Positions 13,095-23,670 of a DNA stretch of 36,305 nucleotides are shown here, piece by piece; the first letter of the stretch is position 1; each line of letters starts with the position of its first letter. The position numbers were made by a program, and so were the translations under genes. The DNA lies in assembly GCA_030540075.1 (NCBI GenBank), contig JAUNWX010000004.1:75902-112206 (forward strand), given 5' to 3'. Below the pieces are notes generated by a model. That model did not search any database, had not been told where the DNA came from, and saw only the letters and a list, made by a program, of their open reading frames with translations. The stretch is from Lachnospiraceae bacterium (GTDB taxonomy: Bacteria > Bacillota > Clostridia > Lachnospirales > Lachnospiraceae).

Positions 13095-14450
13095 TCATTG
13101 CTTTTCGATAATTTCCCAATAACCAAATCGTTTACCGCCGTTCCTGCGAATACGACCGGTTTCTTTTAAATGATTGATTGCCCTCTGAACTGTCTTGTAT
13201 GAAATTCCCATTTGGTCAGCCATAACAGACATAGAAATGTCCTTTTGGGAAGCAATCATGTCCAATATGCGTTGTTCGGTCTCGTTTTCCTTTCGGCCAT
13301 CCTTTTGGACATTCTTTTGGTCATTGTGTCCGTTTGGAATGGCGGCATTTGCTAAGGCAGTAAACTTAACCGTCAGATCATCGCCCAGAACTGTGTATTC
13401 CGGTGCGGAGGAACCCAGCTCCTTGCAGGATTCCAGCACTTTCTGAATACCGCGTCCCCATGCCTCATTATAACCAGCACGATAAAACGCATTGGCAATC
13501 GAGGGATTGAATGGAATGGACTTATGCGTTCCCATCAAGGTCTCTACGGTCCATCCACGTGGCAATATGCAGTTGTTACTGATATACATAGCATCGTCTT
13601 CAATTCGTATTTGAATCGGAACGCTTGCCGCATAATTGTTGTGTCCGAGTGCATTGTAAATTACCTCACGAACGCCTTCACGTGGGAATGGGTAGGTTTC
13701 CACACGCACATCGTGTTCATAGGTGATGGCAGCCTTAAGGTATTTCGTATAGATAAGGTCGATGACTTGATCTGCTATACGGAATAGTGAGCCTTCCACG
13801 GTATCCTGATATTGCAAGTCGGAACCTTTTCCAAACTTTCCAATCTTCACGTAACAGCCCGAAATGATGCGTCCGGGCTTTTTATAAAAGAGCATAACCG
13901 CGGCACGTTTGAGTTTGCCGTCCACTAAAAGGTCAAGATGATCAAGCAGCTCCTCATTGGAGATATTTAAGTCCTTCCTGGTCATGCGCCCTGTTCGGAT
14001 TGCCTCTCTTCTGAAAATCTCAAAACTTTCGCTGTCAAGATCATCCACGCCAATATTATCTACTGGAACAGCATCCCAACGATAGCCGGTCTTTTCAACG
14101 AGAAATTCCGTCAGGGTAGCACCGCGAAGCTGCTGCTTCGTGCTACCGCTTCGGTAATGGTACTCACCCTTGTAACTGACCGGATAAGAGCTGGAGTTGA
14201 CCTTGATTTCAATATAGTCCTTGCCATCCTTGGAAAGCAGATTAACATCCGCGATGATACCCATCGTATCCTTAATCTTGTTCGGAATATCCTCAAGGAG
14301 CTTCTTGCTGTCAGAGATGCCGACAACTTCTCCATCGTCACGGACGCCGATATAGATTTTGCCTCCGCGGGCATTGGCAAATCCGCATACCCATTTCAGG
14401 TATTCGTCTCGCCATGATTCCTTATATTCTCTGTTTTGGCTCTCTGCCAT
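13095..14450 (-). CDS. AlbA_2 (Schlafen-type) putative transcriptional regulator / ATP-binding protein
   Basis: A 451-residue protein with an N-terminal AlbA_2 domain (NREYKESW, then FANARGGKIYIGVRDDGEVV; about 4-125), a middle GHKL-like ATPase region of the RecG-C/HATPase_c_4 type (REVIYNALGHNNY, about 258-275), and a C-terminal winged HTH (ISMSVMADQMGISYKTVQRA). It sits between pglX and pglZ, a place where such ATP-binding proteins often occur in BREX loci. Its role there is not established; regulation or a second defence activity is possible. A GTG at 14486 overlaps the pglX stop, but GGGGAGG precedes the ATG at 14450, so I prefer 14450. Confidence 0.85.
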   Translation of the reverse strand: MAESQNREYKESWRDEYLKWVCGFANARGGKIYIGVRDDGEVVGISDSKKLLEDIPNKIKDTMGIIADVNLLSKDGKDYIEIKVNSSSYPVSYKGEYHYRSGSTKQQLRGATLTEFLVEKTGYRWDAVPVDNIGVDDLDSESFEIFRREAIRTGRMTRKDLNISNEELLDHLDLLVDGKLKRAAVMLFYKKPGRIISGCYVKIGKFGKGSDLQYQDTVEGSLFRIADQVIDLIYTKYLKAAITYEHDVRVETYPFPREGVREVIYNALGHNNYAASVPIQIRIEDDAMYISNNCILPRGWTVETLMGTHKSIPFNPSIANAFYRAGYNEAWGRGIQKVLESCKELGSSAPEYTVLGDDLTVKFTALANAAIPNGHNDQKNVQKDGRKENETEQRILDMIASQKDISMSVMADQMGISYKTVQRAINHLKETGRIRRNGGKRFGYWEIIEKQ

Positions 14451-14482
14451 GGTCAAAGCCTCCCCTCTTATATATGGTTTCG

Positions 14483-17400
14483 TCACTTTATCTTCGCCAG
14501 CACGTCCTGGAACTTGGCATAGTTCACCTTCACTCCGTCATCGAGATCGATGGAAATCATCTGATCGGCGAGGTGATGGATCTTTTCCTCGTACGCATGA
14601 ATTTCCGTTGCCTGGTCGTTCAGCGTCTTCAGCTGCTTATTCAGCTTCACGCGTTCACTCGTCGATGCGTTTGCAGCGCGTGCCTCCAGGTCCGCAATCG
14701 CGGTACGGTAACGCGCCTGCTGCTCATGCACATAATCGGTGCGGATACGGGCGATGGTGTCCGGCTGATAACGATGCATATAGATCAGCGCCTTAAATCC
14801 GTTCTTCTTGCCGCTGTCAAACAGCCAGTAGATCGGGCGCTTCTGATACATCCTGCAATGATCCGCATAGAAGTCATTCAGGAAGTAATTCCGAATCACA
14901 TCCTTCGGCTGCCCCTTGCCGTCCAGTGCATCCGCGATGAATTTCAGATTTTCGTCCAATGTCTCTGCCCCGTACACCGTCTTTACGAATTCTATGAAAC
15001 GATCGACGATATCATCCGCGAAGTACTCATCATCGCAGATCGGGATAATGTTGTCCTTATCCGCCGCAAACGAAACATACTTGCTGCTATCCCATTCGCC
15101 GCCCGCATAGGCAAGTCCGTCCATATCCAGGGAGTAACGACCGAACATACAGCCAACGGCATAGGAAATGAAGGAACGAATATCTCTGCCAAGATCCGCC
15201 TTGCGGACCGTAACATCCTTTTCCTCCACCTCCGGGGTCAGCTCATCCTGTAAACCATAAATGTCGATGAAGATGCGGTTTAGCTCTTCTTCGTTCGCTT
15301 TCAGCTGATTGAAGCGCTCATCGCATTCAGCCTGCCACTGGTCAAAGGCTTCGACAATGGTCGGAACGTTGCGAAGCAGCGGATGATGCTGGAAATCCCA
15401 TGAGGTTTCAAAGGAATCCCAGTCTTGTTTTGATAACTGAATACACTCATTTGAAAGTCTTTGTATAATGACTGAATCTGTCGAATTTAATACAGGAAGC
15501 TTTTCAAAGTCGCCAGCTTGTAAGGATATTGACGGGTTCAAAATATTCAGTATTCTTTGAGTGACTTTAGAATTAAATAATCCCAATAAGAATAAACTTT
15601 TTTCGTAAGACTCTGGAAATACCATCGGCCCTTTGTTGCTATCGAACAATGTTCCCGCTGGCGAAAATCTGAACGTATTTCGGTTGCTTGCCAGACCGTT
15701 CCATGTAATACCCTCTTTAAAAAAAACATCTTGTGCCCCTAAAAAATAGAAGCATCCCGTTATTTGGGCATTTTCAACAATGTCTTTTCCGCCCTTGGCG
15801 AACCACACAACGAGCTCTCTATTTCCATACCAACACCGAGCACTTCCCCCTTTATTGTATGGATACCATTTTACTGTGGATGTTACTGATTCTTCATAAT
15901 TATGAATGTCAAATTTTATATCTTTAATTGAAATTTCCCACCAATTTTTTATGAATCTCTCATTGTTTCCAGTAATGGCTCCGACTCTCGGTGTTGCTAT
16001 ATTTTTAAGTGGTGTCCCCTTTTCAAAAGCATCTAATTCACTTTGAGTGACCCAGTATGCTATCGGACTACCAGGAATATTCATAAATCGACTTTGTTTA
16101 GAATCAAAGGTATTTTTATTTTCGAAAAAGGATTTAGCTTTTTCTGCTTCTCCAGGATAGTCTACAAGTCTTAGGTATTTTCCGATATAATTATTAATAT
16201 ATCGAGATGCCATAACAAAAGATACAGTCTGAACGACTTCGCCACTTATTTCGTCAAAGGCTCTTGCTCCGAGATGGGCCATAGTTATAAACATCATATT
16301 AAATGTACTACGCATTTTTTCATATCTAGATAAGAACATCCATGTGTGTTGCGTTATCATAGAACAAAGTCCTATATCGTTTACCATCTTTGAGCATTTG
16401 GCAATAAACACCGCATACAAATCCGATTTACTATCTGCAAAGTTTTTCTTAACAAAAGATTGAAGTTTTACATTCATCCCCCCTGTGCTCATATACGGTG
16501 GGTTCGTCACTACCGCATCATATTTCTGTGCCAGTGCTTCTGCCACCTGGACCAGTGGCAGCAACTCTCTGAGTGCCGTTTCGCGTGACATATGGATATC
16601 TTCCGTGATCTCTGCGAAGCGGTCATACAGCATCGTCCAGTCCTGTGGTGTAACGGTCAGAATCGAACCATATTCCTTTGCGTCATGCAGCTCGCGGATG
16701 ATGGTATCCATAGCCTCTGAGAGCTCTTCATCGCCCTTGCAGAAATACTCCAGTGCAAAGGAATCCACATGGTTGCTTTCTGCAATGGCATACACATGCG
16801 GCTGAATGTCACGGCTGAAGAAGCGACGGTCATACTGACGTGCTTTCATCATGACAGCGAAGTATGCGAGCTGTGCTGCACGGTCATCGATGTCGAGGCC
16901 GTACAGATTATTCGCAACGATGCTGGCGACCGCGTCACGAGTGGTGTATCCATAGGATTCATAAATCTGCATCAGCACGTCGAACATATACGCGAGGATA
17001 TGACCGGAGCCGGCGCATGGATCGATAACCTTCAGCTGCTCTGGTGTCAGGGCAGCATAGTCCTTCCGAATCTCGGCGAGCTGCTGCTCAACCTCTGGCT
17101 CCTGCTTTGCTTCTTCCAGATAGTAGTGCCATTTCCGGTCTTCCGGATCACGATTTCCAGCCGCATAGGCAGACTGCTCTTCCGCTGTCGGCAGAAGCTG
17201 TTCCTTTACATCCGGGTGTCCTTCCATCCATAAACGCCCCAGACTGTTTTCCACCATGTAGCGGACAATCCAGTCCGGTGTGAACAGCTGCGTTGCCGCC
17301 GGGATGTTTTCCTTCGTGATTTTGACATTCTTTTTAAGGGCGGCGAAAACGTCGTCCTTTTTCTCGCTGTTATAGTATTGATACAGCCAGCCGATGATCT

Positions 17401-18001
17401 GCACCTGATCCTTCCAGTCCTCCTCCGGGATCAGCTCAATCATCTGCTGAATCACACTGCCCTCACGAAGCAGGTTATCCGGGAACAGCAGCTCGGTGTA
17501 ATCCGCGATTTTCTGGAACATGCCCGGCAGCACGCTGTTCAGCGCATTGCACTGCGTGATCAGAAGGTACTTGTAGAGCTCGTCATTGTCGTTTGCTTCC
17601 TTATAGGCATAGACCTTCTCCATATCGAGGCCATCCAGCTCGAGATGAATCGCTTCTGTCAGGATCTGCGGTTTGAAAGCATTGTCCTCATCCGTGAATA
17701 CGCGCACTCTGGTAGGAAGGTAGCTATTGACCTCCATGAAGCGAAGCGCGGAGAAGCGGTTAAACCATGTATAGGCGACCTCCTCCATCACCTGCTCGTA
17801 TCCTTTTTCCTGGATCTGTTCGATCAGGGCTGCGCGCTGCTTCTTCTCTGTAGAAGACAGCAGATGGCCGTTCACACTGTCATCACTCGGGTTTCCGACT
17901 TCTTTCTCGGAGATCCCATATTTGAGCGCCCGCTGGCTTACACGAGCGATCAGCTCCCGCCGCGCTTCTGTGGCGAATTTTTTAATCGCGTTTTTATTCA
18001 T
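14483..18001 (-). CDS. pglX: PglX, BREX adenine-specific DNA methyltransferase
   Basis: An 1172-residue N6-adenine methyltransferase. The SAM motif I is DPCAGSGH (Asp327) and the catalytic motif is NPPY (500-503). The N-terminal part carries the BrxX opening (FATEARRELIARVSQRALKY) and the C-terminal part a helical region (about 870-1172). PglX methylates an asymmetric host motif so that BREX can tell self from phage, and it is also needed for restriction. From about residue 505 to 865 (15410-16490), the target-recognition part, the DNA turns AT-rich while both flanks are GC-rich, which suggests exchange of the specificity domain. AGGAG lies 5 nt before the ATG. The frame is intact. Confidence 0.96.
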   Translation of the reverse strand: MNKNAIKKFATEARRELIARVSQRALKYGISEKEVGNPSDDSVNGHLLSSTEKKQRAALIEQIQEKGYEQVMEEVAYTWFNRFSALRFMEVNSYLPTRVRVFTDEDNAFKPQILTEAIHLELDGLDMEKVYAYKEANDNDELYKYLLITQCNALNSVLPGMFQKIADYTELLFPDNLLREGSVIQQMIELIPEEDWKDQVQIIGWLYQYYNSEKKDDVFAALKKNVKITKENIPAATQLFTPDWIVRYMVENSLGRLWMEGHPDVKEQLLPTAEEQSAYAAGNRDPEDRKWHYYLEEAKQEPEVEQQLAEIRKDYAALTPEQLKVIDPCAGSGHILAYMFDVLMQIYESYGYTTRDAVASIVANNLYGLDIDDRAAQLAYFAVMMKARQYDRRFFSRDIQPHVYAIAESNHVDSFALEYFCKGDEELSEAMDTIIRELHDAKEYGSILTVTPQDWTMLYDRFAEITEDIHMSRETALRELLPLVQVAEALAQKYDAVVTNPPYMSTGGMNVKLQSFVKKNFADSKSDLYAVFIAKCSKMVNDIGLCSMITQHTWMFLSRYEKMRSTFNMMFITMAHLGARAFDEISGEVVQTVSFVMASRYINNYIGKYLRLVDYPGEAEKAKSFFENKNTFDSKQSRFMNIPGSPIAYWVTQSELDAFEKGTPLKNIATPRVGAITGNNERFIKNWWEISIKDIKFDIHNYEESVTSTVKWYPYNKGGSARCWYGNRELVVWFAKGGKDIVENAQITGCFYFLGAQDVFFKEGITWNGLASNRNTFRFSPAGTLFDSNKGPMVFPESYEKSLFLLGLFNSKVTQRILNILNPSISLQAGDFEKLPVLNSTDSVIIQRLSNECIQLSKQDWDSFETSWDFQHHPLLRNVPTIVEAFDQWQAECDERFNQLKANEEELNRIFIDIYGLQDELTPEVEEKDVTVRKADLGRDIRSFISYAVGCMFGRYSLDMDGLAYAGGEWDSSKYVSFAADKDNIIPICDDEYFADDIVDRFIEFVKTVYGAETLDENLKFIADALDGKGQPKDVIRNYFLNDFYADHCRMYQKRPIYWLFDSGKKNGFKALIYMHRYQPDTIARIRTDYVHEQQARYRTAIADLEARAANASTSERVKLNKQLKTLNDQATEIHAYEEKIHHLADQMISIDLDDGVKVNYAKFQDVLAKIK

Positions 18002-18028
18002 TGTGTCTCCTAATTTGTCTCAAGTTCT

Positions 18029-18751
18029 CTATCCATTGACAAATTCTATGATCGGATAAGCTTTAATATTCTGATAACCTGCCGCATTGTATCTTTCTAT
18101 TGCATCGTTTGTGATTTCGAGAAGTTCTTTATGTACCGCCCAGAGCTTTTCCATATCATTTTCCAAATTCCAGAAGAGCTTATATGCACTTCGATAGGAC
18201 TCTGATTTATCCTTTAACTTCATTTTTTTACAGTCTGTAGCACATATACAGTCGTCTGTGAAAAAGGTATCTTCAGGATATATGCAGTGCCCACCATTTT
18301 TTCTAAGATATAGTTTGCAGAATTTCTCAAACGTTTTTGAAAAGGCCTTGTCTTCTTCCGTTTCAATCAATGATGATTCCTTATAGGGACGTATTCCGGA
18401 AATCATTTCATAATCCTGGTCGCTCTTAAACACCTCTATATTCTTATCCCTGCCAAAAGCGGTTATGAAATAGTATTCAGCGCATAAAATATTCCAGACA
18501 ATTAAATGATGGTCATATTGTCTGGATAATCTTCTCAACGCAATATAAATATCACGGATGGATTTGTTTGCAGGTACGGTGTCCAGAATCACCACCACAG
18601 TTTCGTGCTGATTCAGCAGCTCCTCTGCACGCTTTACCAGATTCCCATTACCATCAGAGTATTCTATACTGGCCTTCACTCTATCCGGTAAAGAATATCG
18701 AAAAAGCCTTGATATGTCATCTTCCAGCTTATCTTCAAACAGATAGATCAC
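18029..18751 (-). CDS. Unknown 240-residue protein, third gene of the embedded cassette
   Basis: I do not recognise this family with certainty. The N-terminal half has an alternating strand/helix pattern with VVVILDTVPANKSIRDIYIA, followed by HHLIVWNILCAEYYFITAFG. This is reminiscent of a Rossmann or Toprim-like sheet, but no DxD motif is visible. The second half has a cluster of cysteines (DDCICATDCKK, about 168-178), possibly metal-binding. It starts with GTG in a 4-nt GTGA overlap with the upstream mini-ATPase gene, with GGAGG 7 nt before it, so the two products are made together. The AT-rich DNA differs from the BREX core genes. A nuclease-like effector is a guess only. Confidence 0.75.
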   Translation of the reverse strand: MIYLFEDKLEDDISRLFRYSLPDRVKASIEYSDGNGNLVKRAEELLNQHETVVVILDTVPANKSIRDIYIALRRLSRQYDHHLIVWNILCAEYYFITAFGRDKNIEVFKSDQDYEMISGIRPYKESSLIETEEDKAFSKTFEKFCKLYLRKNGGHCIYPEDTFFTDDCICATDCKKMKLKDKSESYRSAYKLFWNLENDMEKLWAVHKELLEITNDAIERYNAAGYQNIKAYPIIEFVNG

Positions 18752-19125
18752 AGGGATACCTCCAGTTTATTCTTTTGAAGGGTCACAAAGCAGGTATCAT
18801 CGAAATCACAAAAGCTTCTTTCCGTCTTATAATCTACGAGCGTAACACACTCACTATGCTTTAATACTTCTAATTTTTCTGCTTCATGATCATATAAATC
18901 AAAGCGATCTAAAATTAAGAGCTGCGGCTTGCCTGCGATGATCTTTTCGAGGTCCAGCCCCATCAGCATATCATGGTATGTAATCGCGATTTTATCCTTT
19001 TCTCCGATGGATTTCACCATTTTTACAAGCAGGGTTTTTCCTGTGGCAGAATCCGGATGAAAATTATAAAGCCCTGGTTCCAAATCGATATTCACTTTGC
19101 GATTCATCGCCACAAACTCAATCAT
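18748..19125 (-). CDS. Mini P-loop ATPase-like protein (125 residues)
   Basis: A very small protein that looks like a stripped-down ABC/AAA-type nucleotide-binding unit. It shows a strand and turn (IDLEPGLYNF), a Walker A-like HPDSATGKTLL in which Pro replaces the usual first Gly, a Walker B-like PQLLILDRFDLY, and closing strands (CVTLVDYKTE; CFVTLQKNKLEVS). No ABC signature, Q-loop or coiled-coil is present. I infer that it binds ATP and serves as the switch or assembly factor for its neighbours. It is joined to both neighbours by 4-nt overlaps (ATGA upstream, GTGA downstream), strong evidence for a single functional unit. GAGG precedes the ATG. Confidence 0.75.
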   Translation of the reverse strand: MIEFVAMNRKVNIDLEPGLYNFHPDSATGKTLLVKMVKSIGEKDKIAITYHDMLMGLDLEKIIAGKPQLLILDRFDLYDHEAEKLEVLKHSECVTLVDYKTERSFCDFDDTCFVTLQKNKLEVSL

Positions 19126-19541
19126 AGTACGTCCTCGTTAAAACGGTCTAATGTAAACAGCTTCCCTGCGTATTGAATCGGAGTTTTTCGTGTATGCTGG
19201 TCTACAACGGTTACGCCGAAGTCATGAAGCAGTACCTTCCCGTCTTCGCAGTAATTAAAAATCGCATCCCGCGCATTTAATCCACATTCCTGTAAATCGA
19301 TCATCTGATCTGGCATGAGTGCCACACAAATCGCAGCCTTGCAGCCGGTACTCAATTCTGAAAGATACAAACGCACGCCGAAGCGGTCTTCAAACGTAGA
19401 TTCATCAATCATATTTCCGGTATCCACTGCCTTAATGATATTTTTTACAGCATCGTTCACCACGATTTCGAGCTTCGAGAACGCCGCATCGATATCAACG
19501 ATGTCAGCACGACAATTCTCAGCATCAAATACTTGTAGCAT
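19122..19541 (-). CDS. DUF4869-like protein, first gene of the embedded cassette
   Basis: A 139-residue protein whose central block, YLSELSTGCKAAICVALMPD, together with the following ECGLNARD, resembles the DUF4869 pattern (LSTG-K-ali ... cG-Na). It has no signal peptide, membrane segment or catalytic motif that I can identify. It begins a three-gene unit behind its own candidate promoter (19597-19625). AAGGGG lies 5 nt before the ATG, and its stop overlaps the next start (ATGA). The function of DUF4869 is unknown. In this context it may be a sensor or antitoxin-like partner of the two following proteins (inference). Confidence 0.75.
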   Translation of the reverse strand: MLQVFDAENCRADIVDIDAAFSKLEIVVNDAVKNIIKAVDTGNMIDESTFEDRFGVRLYLSELSTGCKAAICVALMPDQMIDLQECGLNARDAIFNYCEDGKVLLHDFGVTVVDQHTRKTPIQYAGKLFTLDRFNEDVL

Positions 19542-19574
19542 ACAAACCCCTTTTTGATTCTTATCTCCATCCTT

Positions 19575-19625
19575 ATAGACGCGTCTATGGTATCACATTA
19601 TATTAATTTATCCTGATTTTCTAAA
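19575..19625 (-). promoter_or_regulatory. Internal promoter with a palindromic operator-like site
   Basis: On the minus strand, -35 TTTAGA (19625-19620), a 17-nt spacer and -10 TATAAT (19602-19597). A perfect 14-bp palindrome ATAGACGCGTCTAT follows at 19588-19575, where transcription would start. This would let the three-gene cassette be controlled separately from the BREX operon. The -35 matches 4 of 6. Confidence 0.55.
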
Positions 19626-20103
19626 CCACTATCGTATCTCTGATATTTGCCCGTAATGCAAACAATGGAACTGGTAGTATTCCTTTTACCTTTTTTTGAT
19701 CAACACTATACGCTGTCACTTTACATTTATCAAAGTGCTCCTTTTGGCAATGCCATTCCAAAGCATTTGCTTCCTGTTCTGATAAAGTATATATGATATT
19801 ATGAAAAGGTAATATAATTCTGTCACTTTCAGCTATATGGCAATCTACTAATAGTTTCTTCTTGTGGCAAATCACAAAGTTCTCCAAAATAAAAGGTTTC
19901 TCTCCCACATTAAAGATTTCTACTCCATATTCAGATGCACTTTCTTTTACACGGTATTTCTTTTCTGTCAGTTCATCATCTGGTGTAGACACCATTTGAA
20001 AGCAGAGCTTCGGTCTTTCCCTAAAAGTAGTAGTCAGTTCATTCAGTACCCAGCCAATGACAACTCCGATAACGCCAATCCCTGCACTAATTAGTTCTAT
20101 CAT
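19621..20103 (-). CDS. Membrane-anchored protein of unknown function within the BREX locus
   Basis: A 160-residue protein with an N-terminal hydrophobic segment (LISAGIGVIGVVIGWVLNEL, residues about 4-23) followed by a basic stretch and a roughly 130-residue mostly beta domain (YGVEIFNVGEKPFILENFVI...). This is a type III/N-in-like small anchored protein; I do not recognise the family. It begins 15 nt after brxC with AGGAG 9 nt before the ATG, so it is probably co-transcribed with brxC. The DNA is AT-rich. Possible roles are tethering BREX parts to the membrane or sensing injection, but these are guesses. Confidence 0.75.
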   Translation of the reverse strand: MIELISAGIGVIGVVIGWVLNELTTTFRERPKLCFQMVSTPDDELTEKKYRVKESASEYGVEIFNVGEKPFILENFVICHKKKLLVDCHIAESDRIILPFHNIIYTLSEQEANALEWHCQKEHFDKCKVTAYSVDQKKVKGILPVPLFALRANIRDTIVV

Positions 20104-20118
20104 GGTTTGTCTCTCCTG

Positions 20119-23100
20119 TTAATTTAGCTTGATTCCGTCGCAATCCTTCATCATCGCGCTGAGGTAGGACCGCATGCGCTCGACATAGGCGTCGATGTCC
20201 GCCTGGCTTTCCAGGATCTTCGACGGGAACTGCTGCCGATAGACGGTCTTGATGACCTTCTTCGGCTTCGCAGGTGCTGCCGGAGCGCCGCTTGCCGGCG
20301 TCACCACAGGCTTCACAGGCTCTACCGGCTTCTTCAGCGCCTCCATGCAATTCACAGTCTCATCCTTGTATGCCCACAGCTGCGGTACCAGACCATCCAG
20401 GAGCTGCAGACTTTCAAGCTCTGCCACTCTGCCCTTCTGCTGGCTGAAATAGGTGTCCGCTTTCCCCAGTAGATTGCTGCACTCGGCATTGTCAACTCCT
20501 GTGACATGAATCTCTTCCAGGCACTGACGGATGATTTCTGAAATTTCCGCACGCTTCGCGTCCAGCAGTCGTCCATGTCCTTCACGTACCGTATCCATCA
20601 GACCGTTAAGCTCCGGAATACGCTTGTATACGCTGCTCTTCTCTGCGTCAACAACGGTGATGAGACGAATCTGATTCAGTGCATTGTTTGCCGCCTCTTC
20701 CTTCTGCAGATATGACAGGTCGTTCTTCAGATTTCTCTCCATACGGACAGCCTCATCAAATACCTGTACCTGGTTCTTGAAGAAGCCTTCGACGTCCAGG
20801 AGGTCATCCATACTATCGAGAAGTGCACCCTCCTCCTTCAGAAGCCGGTCGATGAGCGCGATATTATCTTTCCGCTGCGAAAGCACGCTGTCCATGAGTC
20901 GGAGTGCTTCCCGTACCAGCGCATGATCCGGGTATTTATGCCCCTCATAGCGTTTATTCAGCTCCTCATAGTGCGCTTTCTGCACTTCAAATTTCTGAAC
21001 GATGAAGCTTACCAGTCCGTCTTCATCATCCGGTACATCCATGACATCGAAGTACTCACGAAGCATTTCCTTGACCGAGCGCATCTTCGTCGCGGTGATC
21101 ACCTGGCGCTTCGAAATGATGTTCTTTCCGATCTCGCTCTTCTTACGGAGCATATCCGGAAGTTTCGGATTGCCCGGCTGGATCGTTTCTCCGGCATACT
21201 TGATGGTCACCTTCTGGTCATAGATCAGCATCGCTGCCACGACAGCGATGTCGATTTCTTTCCATCCATACGGGATTGCCTGATAGCGGCTCTGCACATC
21301 GGCCATCGAGGTCGGAAGCTTCTTCGTATCCTGCATCTCCAGGTACTCTTCCATCCGGACGGCAGCATCATGGTTTTCTTCCATGCCCTCGATGACACCA
21401 TTCAGGTGTTCACCACGAAGCACCGCCAGCACATCTGCATCGGTTTCAGCATTCTTCGTGATCAGTGAAAGCTCACTGTACACATGCGTAACCAGGTACT
21501 CGAGCGCCTGATCCAGCTTGTTCTTGGCATCGCCGCCCTTGATCTCGATATGCTCACCATCCACATAGAACTCCGCATCAATGATGGCCTTCTTCAGATC
21601 CTCCTCAGCAGATGCCTCATACTTGGTCGCTTCATCCTGATGATTACGAATGATGTCCTGTACGGACTTCGGGAGCTGTGACACATTGCGCTGCTTCACA
21701 TACTTTCGTACCTTCATCGCCTTTTCCAGAGACTCATAGTACGGCGTCTCCGACAGCACCACGATGGCCTGATTCTTCGACTCGGTCATCAGGCGAAGCT
21801 CGCTCTTCTCTGCCACGTCCGCTGCGACGGTCAGGATATGAAGCCGCATACCGCCGGTGACGGCACCGATATTGGTTGTGTCTACCATCTGGTCAAACGG
21901 AAAGTCGTATTTCCCGTGACGATACTTCTTTGTGGTATAGATATCCGCAAAAATCATCTGGCCGATACGCTCCACGATGGCAGAGGTATCTACCTGTGTA
22001 TTCTTATAAATATCCCGCTGAATATCCTGTTCCTCATCGGTCAGGAAATTATATGTATCACCGGTTCTTCCGATATAGTTCTGACTCAACAGACGGTCGA
22101 GGCTTGCGCCCACCGTCTTTCGCATCGTGATCTTATCGATGCGGATATCATCTGCCATGAGGATGACGATGTTGTCGAGGTTCCCCGGTATATCATCCAC
22201 ATAACGGATGAGGTACAGGAGTTTTAATACATTTACATCCTGCTGCTCGATGCCATCGCCGTTATCCGCCGCCTTCTGGCAGCGCTCGATCACGCGACGA
22301 ATCGCACTGTCGAGGAAGCTGTGTACGGTATCATAGAAAAGATAGAACGGTGCCAGTGCATACTCGTCCTTCTCCTGAATCTTCTGTGCCGCCTCCTGGA
22401 ATCCGGACAGCATGGAACGCTCTCCTCCGGAGAGATGCTTACCAGCATTTCCATGCTTTCGGATTTCTGCAAATACCTTCTGCATGATGATGAACTGGTA
22501 CGGCACAAACGGGAAGTTCCGCACGAAGTCCTGCGGACCGGTATATCCCTTGATATCCAGCATTGCCCCTGTAAAACTGAAGAGGTTACGAAGAACAGAA
22601 TCGTTCGCTGTATAGACCTCTTCCAGTGCCGGCTCTACCTCCGGCTTCTTCTTCAGAATACGCTTCTGAATGACTTCATCTGCGGAAGAAGAGGTCAGAG
22701 AAAGCCGGGTCTTGAAGCGGGCCTGAATACGAGAGAACTCATTCTCACGCGCTTTGATGATCTCATCGATGGCTTCCTGTCCGGTACATACGACCCAGAT
22801 CTTACCGCCACACTCACTGCCGATTTTCTCGACCAGAGACTGCAGATTGATCAGCAGATCAGTATCACCGCCTACATATTGGCCGACTTCATCCACCATG
22901 AAGAGTAAACGGAAGTCATCCGGCTGCGTATCTACATACTCTTTCATCTCGGATACAAGCTGCGCGATGCTGGTTTCAACCGTCTCTGTTCCGTTAAACC
23001 AGTTACGCGCTGCATCCTCACTCATGCCGAGAACTTCTTTTAACGTTTCAACGATGTCATCCTCAAAGAAGGCAAACGCATCTCTGGATTCGGTCCAGGC

Positions 23101-23670
23101 ACCACCGTTCTTTTCTTCAAATACACGACGAAATTCTTCGGTCTTCCCACGCTTCTCGATGAACTGCTCCAGCTTCGCAACCTTCAGATTCTCCCCATAG
23201 AATCCGAGGTAGTTGTAAAACATCTTGGCAAATACACGAAGTACGGCTGTCTTATCCTTGTTGATGGAGCCTTCGATATCGATATTAAAAAGAATCGTAT
23301 CCGTATGGCCCTTCGTCACCGAATCGATCAGCATAAAGGTGGCCGGATCATCCGCGAACTTCTTACGGAACCGCTCTACGGTACGAATGTCTTTTACCTC
23401 TCGATTCGCGAGCAGGTAAGACAGCATCTTCAGGAAGTGTGATTTACCACTTCCGAAGAAACCGGAAATCCAGACACCGATGTCCGCAGTTTCTTCATGA
23501 AATGACTCTCCGTAATTATTGAAGAAGGTGATGAAATGCTTCTTCAGATCTCTCGTGATGACATATTCATCCAGTTCCTGTACGAGAACGTCGGTCGCAT
23601 CCTGATCAACTTTTACGACACCGTTGATTTTACGATTTATATCTTCCTGGAATAACTGCTCAATAATCAT
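20119..23670 (-). CDS. brxC: BrxC, BREX P-loop ATPase
   Basis: An 1183-residue ATPase with the BrxC N-terminus (MIIEQLFQEDINRKINGVVK) and Walker A GFFGSGKS (70-77). Further along are a Walker B-like LLFMVDEVGQYVG region and long helical/coiled stretches. Near the C-terminus a Pro/Ala/Lys linker (EPVKPVVTPASGAPAAPAKP) leads to a short terminal helical domain. BrxC is required for BREX defence and is thought to be the large motor or scaffold that works with BrxB and PglZ. The length is normal (about 1200). AAGGGGG precedes the ATG. It follows brxB after a 90-nt gap with a small imperfect hairpin. Confidence 0.96.
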   Translation of the reverse strand: MIIEQLFQEDINRKINGVVKVDQDATDVLVQELDEYVITRDLKKHFITFFNNYGESFHEETADIGVWISGFFGSGKSHFLKMLSYLLANREVKDIRTVERFRKKFADDPATFMLIDSVTKGHTDTILFNIDIEGSINKDKTAVLRVFAKMFYNYLGFYGENLKVAKLEQFIEKRGKTEEFRRVFEEKNGGAWTESRDAFAFFEDDIVETLKEVLGMSEDAARNWFNGTETVETSIAQLVSEMKEYVDTQPDDFRLLFMVDEVGQYVGGDTDLLINLQSLVEKIGSECGGKIWVVCTGQEAIDEIIKARENEFSRIQARFKTRLSLTSSSADEVIQKRILKKKPEVEPALEEVYTANDSVLRNLFSFTGAMLDIKGYTGPQDFVRNFPFVPYQFIIMQKVFAEIRKHGNAGKHLSGGERSMLSGFQEAAQKIQEKDEYALAPFYLFYDTVHSFLDSAIRRVIERCQKAADNGDGIEQQDVNVLKLLYLIRYVDDIPGNLDNIVILMADDIRIDKITMRKTVGASLDRLLSQNYIGRTGDTYNFLTDEEQDIQRDIYKNTQVDTSAIVERIGQMIFADIYTTKKYRHGKYDFPFDQMVDTTNIGAVTGGMRLHILTVAADVAEKSELRLMTESKNQAIVVLSETPYYESLEKAMKVRKYVKQRNVSQLPKSVQDIIRNHQDEATKYEASAEEDLKKAIIDAEFYVDGEHIEIKGGDAKNKLDQALEYLVTHVYSELSLITKNAETDADVLAVLRGEHLNGVIEGMEENHDAAVRMEEYLEMQDTKKLPTSMADVQSRYQAIPYGWKEIDIAVVAAMLIYDQKVTIKYAGETIQPGNPKLPDMLRKKSEIGKNIISKRQVITATKMRSVKEMLREYFDVMDVPDDEDGLVSFIVQKFEVQKAHYEELNKRYEGHKYPDHALVREALRLMDSVLSQRKDNIALIDRLLKEEGALLDSMDDLLDVEGFFKNQVQVFDEAVRMERNLKNDLSYLQKEEAANNALNQIRLITVVDAEKSSVYKRIPELNGLMDTVREGHGRLLDAKRAEISEIIRQCLEEIHVTGVDNAECSNLLGKADTYFSQQKGRVAELESLQLLDGLVPQLWAYKDETVNCMEALKKPVEPVKPVVTPASGAPAAPAKPKKVIKTVYRQQFPSKILESQADIDAYVERMRSYLSAMMKDCDGIKLN

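Follow-up and report, generated by a model that had tools for sequence, protein, structure and literature searches.

The 36,305-nt stretch of a Lachnospiraceae bacterium genome analyzed here (the window) carries a type-1 BREX locus, and a trio of small genes, g1, g2 and g3, is flanked by its brxC and pglX genes. Open reading frame (ORF) calls and PADLOC matches bore out the first-pass annotation, which was made from the sequence alone, in placing three small genes between brxC and pglX with 4-nt overlaps at ATGA (g1/g2) and GTGA (g2/g3). A further gene, g0, sits between brxC and the trio and was omitted there. The three genes are as follows.

19122-19541, minus strand: g1, ORF of 139 residues, DUF4869-like, proposed carrier of an ABC-signature-like motif
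18748-19125, minus strand: g2, ORF of 125 residues, minimal P-loop NTPase
18029-18751, minus strand: g3, ORF of 240 residues with a GTG start, predicted to be TOPRIM-like, with a C-terminal cysteine cluster

Compared with L066, the closest trio found elsewhere, the three genes differ at codon positions 1/2/3 by 22/11/57% (g1), 18/6/54% (g2) and 27/20/52% (g3), and each of them therefore looks to be under selection as a protein. The trio had been called AT-rich, which is true relative to brxC and to the initial 1.5 kb of pglX (36-44% G+C in 500-base bins vs 47-54%) but not relative to the interior of pglX, where the G+C content likewise falls to 35-38%.

Recurrence of the trio and its place in the BREX locus

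We searched 299 genomes of the family for g3 and obtained matches in seven, including the own genome of the window and a spurious one (G065, locus L014), which was dropped as a trio because the match lies within a 1172-residue ORF with neither g1 nor g2. Of 392 genomes of the order, 42 (about a tenth) matched DUF4869, while a phylum-wide draw of 398 genomes gave a match to the trio-type g1 profile in the own genome only. A scan of genome contigs gave seven loci, of which L068, L070 and L071 repeat L013, L010 and L011. Nine full sets have the order g1-g2-g3 (L010, L011, L012, L050, the second set of L051, L052, L066, L067 and L069), two sets of this order are broken by contig ends (L009 and L015), and five sets have the order g3-g1-g2 (L048, the first set of L051 with a short g3, and L053-L055). 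L013, which retains a g3 fragment, L056, in which no g3 was found, L049 and L072 are incomplete. L046 and L047 were not counted either, as their 280-residue third gene is g3-like by eye only and was missed by the profile.

When BrxA, BrxB, BrxC, BrxL, PglX, PglZ, the Schlafen gene and g0 of the window were used as queries at E 1e-5, no BREX homologue was found in any of the 21 trio-type stretches (10.7-20.4 kb each, some ending near the trio). Because the same three domains recur in these loci, the trio does not appear to be a part of BREX. Conservation as a unit elsewhere, which the first-pass annotation had named as one sign of an independent system, is observed outside BREX, and inside BREX the trio is seen in the window only.

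The domains also recur in other arrangements. A DUF4869 gene adjoins a g2 homologue in 27 of the 30 loci examined and lacks one in the other three. In 19 of the 30, which represent the main DUF4869 branch, the neighbor of g1 is a fused g2+g3-like protein of about 320 residues, and in another eight a shorter g2 homologue lies beside DUF4869. Homology links the C-terminal half of these g2+g3-like fusions with the window g3 (hhalign 94.3%, E 1.1e-7; percentages given for profile comparisons below are likewise probabilities), and one genome encodes a g1-g2 fusion (L073:5251-6357). Given two distinct fusions and two alternative gene orders, the three domains seem to be joined in one function, so that g1, g2 and g3 would work together. 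Among the viral contigs, neither g3 nor the A3 set of g1 sequences had relatives; the plasmids gave no g3 match, and three plasmid records carry the fused g2-g3 protein. The name DUF4869 was not found in the literature searched, and a search on TOPRIM, ABC, RloAB and BREX returned no title or abstract start describing the trio.

Two side observations concern DUF4869 itself. Genome G532 (L061, L065 and L073-L079) holds ten DUF4869 matches, one of them fused to the P-loop domain and several without a full-length partner. Five unannotated human-faecal phage records (MT836825, MT836187, MT835722, MT835885 and MT839573) carry DUF4869 genes.

The surroundings of the trio in the window comprise the following genes.

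20119-23670, minus strand: brxC, PADLOC BrxC, E=0
19621-20103, minus strand: g0, 160 residues, N-terminus hydrophobic by eye, an accessory gene of the BREX junction outside the trio
14483-18001, minus strand: pglX, PADLOC PglX, E=0
13095-14486, between pglX and pglZ: gene for a Schlafen AlbA_2, HATPase_c_4 and winged helix-turn-helix protein

To compare the brxC-pglX junction (window 18002-20118), 20 related BREX loci (L185-L204) were fetched out of 28 further genomes in which pglX was matched; the genes of L187 (pglX) and L202 (pglX and brxC) are masked by overlapping antisense ORFs, and these junctions were inferred. The junction is empty in 13 of the 20 relatives and holds genes in seven: a g0-like gene alone in L202 and L203, g0 together with a SEFIR/TIR gene in L186, a SEFIR/TIR gene in L189, an AAA_21 ABC ATPase in L201, a 206-residue gene with an N-terminus hydrophobic by eye in L187, and in L190, where the contig ends, a 175-residue fragment in which an RxxxxH motif is visible by eye. 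The g0 homologues in these trio-free junctions match that of the window at 75% (L186), 54% (L203) and 38% (L202), and g0 matched no family. The trio itself was not found upstream of pglX in any of the 20 relatives, three of whose stretches are short.

The same genome contains a decayed second copy of the trio on contig C59 (G000:C59, L234:3617-4281), with 94-95% identity across 18716-19145 and 19369-19609. In this copy the middle of g1 is deleted, g3 is missing except for its first bases, and the palindrome upstream of g1 has one mismatch. Since most junctions are empty, a decayed copy exists and other copies stand without BREX genes, the trio appears to be mobile cargo at the brxC-pglX junction. 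Together with both gene orders and both kinds of fusion, these observations support the earlier proposal of a self-contained module. As for the Schlafen gene of the window, one survey reports genes of this type among the auxiliary effectors of BREX (PMC12839542).

Upstream of g1 the first-pass annotation had pointed to a private promoter and, at the presumed start site, a palindrome.

19597-19625, minus strand: promoter-like TTTAGA-17-TATAAT, from a motif scan
19575-19588, strandless: perfect 14-bp palindrome ATAGACGCGTCTAT, from a palindrome scan

Both sequences exist. The 2.5 kb scanned contain 12 promoter-like sites, against 6.8 (sd 2.4) expected from shuffles, and the match is one of these and one of four with 10/12 matches; being not far above chance, it is weak evidence for a promoter. 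The palindrome is one of three perfect palindromes of at least 14 bp in the window, and no perfect palindrome of at least 10 bp occurs in the 300 bases upstream of the L066 trio, so a conserved operator at 19575-19588 found no support. The dedicated start site suggested at 19588 is accordingly a weakly backed candidate. Because the block shared with the decayed copy ends in the leader at 19609, the -10 and palindrome region would travel with the genes and the -35 would not. The window also contains a 28-bp perfect palindrome, CATCTACTTGATGTACATCAAGTAGATG, at 2024-2051.

Sequence features of the three proteins

The motifs discussed below lie at these positions.

19338-19355, minus strand: LSTGCK (LSxGxK motif) of g1, residues 63-68, from motif conservation
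19033-19056, minus strand: Walker A of g2, PDSATGKT, residues 24-31, aligned to the ABC Walker A
18907-18921, minus strand: Walker B of g2 at residues 69-73, LLILD with Arg next, in alignment with that of OLD and PARIS-like proteins
18734-18736, minus strand: E6 of g3, proposed first TOPRIM acid, in 31 of 32 aligned sequences, the remaining one gapped
18581-18583, minus strand: D57 of g3, proposed second TOPRIM acid, in 32 of 32 aligned sequences
18476-18478, minus strand: E92 of g3 (CAEYYF), in 32 of 32, aligned to the RloB FElW motif
18230-18286, minus strand: cysteine cluster of g3 (C156, C168, C170 and C174), possible metal site

The sequence of g2 agrees with the earlier description of a Walker A with Pro in place of the first Gly and an ILDRFD Walker B, the latter region reading LLILDRFD. 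The g2 family profile is similar to ABC transporters (91.4%, E 8.9e-7) and to AAA_21 (75.3%), and aligns with OLD proteins over 131 columns in the order Walker B, H-loop and start of TOPRIM (80.7%, E 1.3e-5). The two Walker motifs are 41 residues apart in the window g2 and 27-64 residues apart in all 55 g2 sequences, as set by an automatic motif rule that possibly misplaced a few of the shortest, and an ISxG match lies between them in two of the 55. The corresponding spacing is 110-117 residues in seven of eight ABC transporters (seven scored), 232-288 in the four of 13 AAA_21 proteins that were scorable and 175-290 in all seven OLD-type proteins. Because the Walker motifs stand so close, g2 lacks the helical and signature region. 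The family consensus has no His at the H-loop position. As judged from these alignments and spacings, g2 is an ABC-type P-loop core without room for a signature domain. The fused g2-g3 proteins aligned collinearly with two ABC-DUF4435 chains (116 columns, 11%, score 31.8; 20 shuffles reached at most 20.4), and their best match to the OLD set was confined to Walker A (42.5%).

The assignment of g1 to DUF4869 (PF16163) was recovered at 26.9 bits and E 4.7e-6, below the gathering cut-off of 28.9 bits, which several other trio-type g1 proteins exceed. Homology was traced by the profile and by intermediate sequences, and places g1 in a divergent branch whose g2 and g3 are separate genes. The best conserved element of the family is LSxGxK: S64, G66 and K68 are invariant in 18 of 18 trio-type g1 proteins, [LIM][SA]x[GSN]x[KQ] is present in 61 of 62 DUF4869 sequences, and the strict form LSxGx[KQ] in 48 of the 62. 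In two of four ABC and OLD profiles, AAA_21 (score 22.2; 24 shuffles reached at most 12.9) and ABC transporters (score 21.2; 25 shuffles reached at most 18.4), the best match of the g1 profile is the ABC signature. Alignments of the single g1 sequence reached an LSxG-type site in seven of eight ABC transporters, perhaps not the signature itself in two, and in three of 13 AAA_21 proteins. Because g1 carries the LSxGxK motif and g2 lacks that element, g1 in our view likely provides the ABC signature element missing from g2.

The motifs noted earlier in g3 (ILDTVPANKS, CAEYYF and four cysteines) are all present. E6, D57, E92 and E142 are each conserved in at least 31 of 32 sequences, and C168 is invariant in 15 of 15; the cysteine cluster is a possible metal site. 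The g3 profile aligned with that of RloB at a score of 25.3 (30 shuffles reached at most 16.1), with ILDTVPAN on the Asp strand of RloB and CAEYYF on FElW. This RloB profile consists of 11 sequences and excludes L148, an ATPase ORF; when L148 was included (12 sequences), the values were 35.8 and 46% and the motif pairing was unchanged. The C-terminal half of the fused proteins aligned with DUF4435 (35.7, 55.9%; 29 shuffles reached at most 21.5), and the combined set of g3 and fused C-terminal halves aligned with both RloB (26.8, 9.1%; shuffles at most 14.7) and DUF4435 (29.8, 17.1%; shuffles at most 15.9). Thus, g3 is probably a remote TOPRIM relative of the RloB/DUF4435 type, which may not be an active nuclease because the second Asp of the TOPRIM DxD motif is absent. 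The TOPRIM and split-ABC assignments both rest on weak profile matches and motifs.

A proposed mechanism and its rivals

On balance, we lean slightly towards the view that the trio is a miniaturized, trans-split ABC ATPase-TOPRIM defense module, carried as BREX cargo and working in the manner of PARIS, OLD/Gabija and RloAB. In such a module, g2 with its Walker A and B motifs would be the nucleotide-binding core of the ATPase, and g1 would supply the LSxGxK element, probably packing on g2 to form a composite ATP site and sensor. Together g1 and g2 would hold the TOPRIM-like effector g3 inactive until the module senses a phage protein or harm done to BREX, whereupon g3 would be released or switched on and attack nucleic acid, either tRNA or DNA, so that the cell shuts down and the infection stops. 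The trio would have been acquired as cargo between brxC and pglX and would act as a back-up layer of defense. Its most specific part, that DUF4869 is the missing signature lobe and that an ATPase site built in trans from P-loop core and signature donor gates a TOPRIM-like effector, we put forward tentatively and as doubtful in itself.

The role in defense that the first-pass annotation had suggested is backed indirectly, by the ABC-TOPRIM likeness, by the other cargo at the junction and by a few defense genes among the neighbors. That the trio guards BREX, the other role suggested there, is a conjecture. SngABC, which we take to be the Shango system, lies two genes away from the L011 trio, and GmrSD four genes away from the g3 of L009. 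We compared 134 proteins from 20 trio loci (with incomplete sets among them and without proteins of 1500 residues or more) with 134 controls, used out of 141 chosen after exclusion of one very long protein and the last six; the comparison yields families, the best 25 of 57 and of 38, and not gene counts. Defense families among those listed were GmrSD/Orf5, AbiEi, SngB, SngC and SoFic on the trio side, where the BrxHI and BrxD matches come from the same genes as SngB/SngC, and mad2/mad3, HamB, PbeA and PDC-M23 on the control side.

Several results weigh against the proposed module. In the window g2, an Arg follows the Walker B Asp (DR) and the usual catalytic Glu is absent, and neither g2 nor g3 has a credible match, as opposed to weak ones at chance level, in Pfam, NCBIfam, PADLOC or PHROGs; for g1 these collections gave DUF4869 and no other credible family. 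None of the 32 sequences of the g3 set matched a TOPRIM family, nor DUF4435 or RloB (PF13707) in Pfam. The g3-RloB probability is 5.4% with the cleaned RloB set, and the comparisons of g3 with DUF4435 (29 shuffles reached up to 20.1), of the fused C-terminal half with RloB, and of the OLD-TOPRIM profile with g3, the fused C-terminal half and the combined set all gave noise. With g3 as a single sequence, two of 12 RloB-set proteins (L148 included) scored above the best of 118 unrelated proteins, one of them over a misaligned region, and so did two of 13 AAA_21 proteins. One fused protein and three alignments were also run against PDB sequences and returned nothing meaningful. To these points may be added the missing second Asp of g3 and the fact that the window trio is the sole one found inside BREX.

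Of the alternatives, a real if doubtful possibility is that the trio is an ABC-TOPRIM-like module in which DUF4869 acts as an independent, antitoxin-like regulator or inhibitor of the g2-g3 enzyme and LSxGxK is a coincidental loop motif. The hhalign probabilities of g1 with the ABC profiles, 2.6% for AAA_21 and 2.4% for ABC transporters, fit this alternative and count against the favored module, as do the OLD and PARIS-like profiles, which gave no signature match with g1, and the single-sequence scores of g1, which lie mostly inside the range of the 118 unrelated proteins and exceed the best of them in one of eight ABC transporters and none of 13 AAA_21 proteins. It has to explain, however, why the part of DUF4869 that is most conserved is exactly the element that g2 lacks, and why g1 and g2 are found fused in L073. 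An unlikely reading is that of a toxin-antitoxin-like addiction module, in which g1 and g2 restrain the toxin g3 and the main role of the genes is the maintenance of the BREX cargo region, or of a mobile element, and not phage sensing. The small size and overlaps of the genes would suit it, and the decayed copy looks as if the toxic part was lost first, with the incomplete L013 and L056 sets pointing the same way; three genes with an ATPase core would nevertheless be unusual for a plain toxin-antitoxin system, and the collinearity is with ATP-driven phage-defense families.

We consider it rather unlikely that the trio is a module outside defense, for DNA repair or regulation, whose insertion into BREX is incidental. 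The neighbor families, mostly ordinary or metabolic in the best 25 of 120, the modest defense signal and the weak TOPRIM link speak for such a module and also count against the one we favor, whereas the patchy spread of DUF4869 and of trio-type g1, the SEFIR/TIR or ABC genes that the junction holds elsewhere, and the multiple and decayed copies do not sit well with it. That the trio is a true, lineage-specific set of BREX subunits is very improbable: it shares the strand of pglX and lies 27 bases from it, but it was not found upstream of pglX in the 20 relatives and occurs elsewhere without BREX genes.

If the trans-split ABC ATPase-TOPRIM reading is true, its architecture would be new among ABC-TOPRIM immune modules, and the very small design would offer a natural test of the role of the signature domain. 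It would also give a function to a Pfam DUF present in about a tenth of the sampled genomes of the order. The brxC-pglX junction would be a spot where BREX loci of Lachnospiraceae acquire interchangeable effectors.

Comparison with known systems

In BREX loci, auxiliary effectors such as Schlafen proteins and ABC-nuclease pairs occupy the same kind of site in the operon as the trio. A 2026 survey describes BREX loci that harbor OLD-ABC modules linked to TOPRIM as well as effectors of the Schlafen type, and in the part available it does not name the trio, beyond a broad kinship to TOPRIM-ABC modules (PMC12839542). The StySA BREX locus of Salmonella contains between pglX and pglZ a two-gene ATPase-DUF4435 region, which is absent in E. 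coli HS and dispensable for methylation (PMC9009780).

RloA and RloB are paired as an AAA_21 ATPase and RloB. The g3 profile shows a weak alignment with RloB that covers its Asp strand and FElW motif, but RloA is a full-length ABC ATPase and g3 falls below any RloB (PF13707) threshold. As a separate observation, the own genome of the window encodes an AAA_21-RloB pair at G000:C12, L236:5665-7667, and on the same contig (L236:10433-14662) a 1409-residue protein whose start, by eye, resembles an SMC-like component of Wadjet.

The OLD proteins, including GajA of Gabija, share with the fused g2-g3 proteins the domain order Walker B, H-loop and TOPRIM. They are, however, single ABC-TOPRIM chains of more than 500 residues, whereas the window trio is split and its fused g2-g3 relatives, which match in part, have about 320 residues, no helical or signature insertion and a DUF4869 partner. 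Class 1 OLD proteins reportedly have a degenerate signature themselves (PMC7049728).

PARIS combines AriA, an ABC ATPase, with AriB, a TOPRIM tRNase, and resembles the trio in joining an ABC-type ATPase to a TOPRIM-like protein. Its ATPase sensor holds and then activates the TOPRIM tRNase, as described in PMC12409363. AriA is a full ABC protein in one chain, while the ATPase of the trio would be divided into a small P-loop core, the 125-residue g2 with 41 residues and no signature between its Walker motifs, and a separate DUF4869 protein; the PADLOC models, including that of AriA, gave no match to the trio at E up to 1. AriB is a TOPRIM protein of the DUF4435 kind, whereas g3 has no DUF4435 match and keeps one Asp of DxD. 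By the features tested, the trio is not a member of PARIS or OLD, though in the reading favored here it would work as they do.

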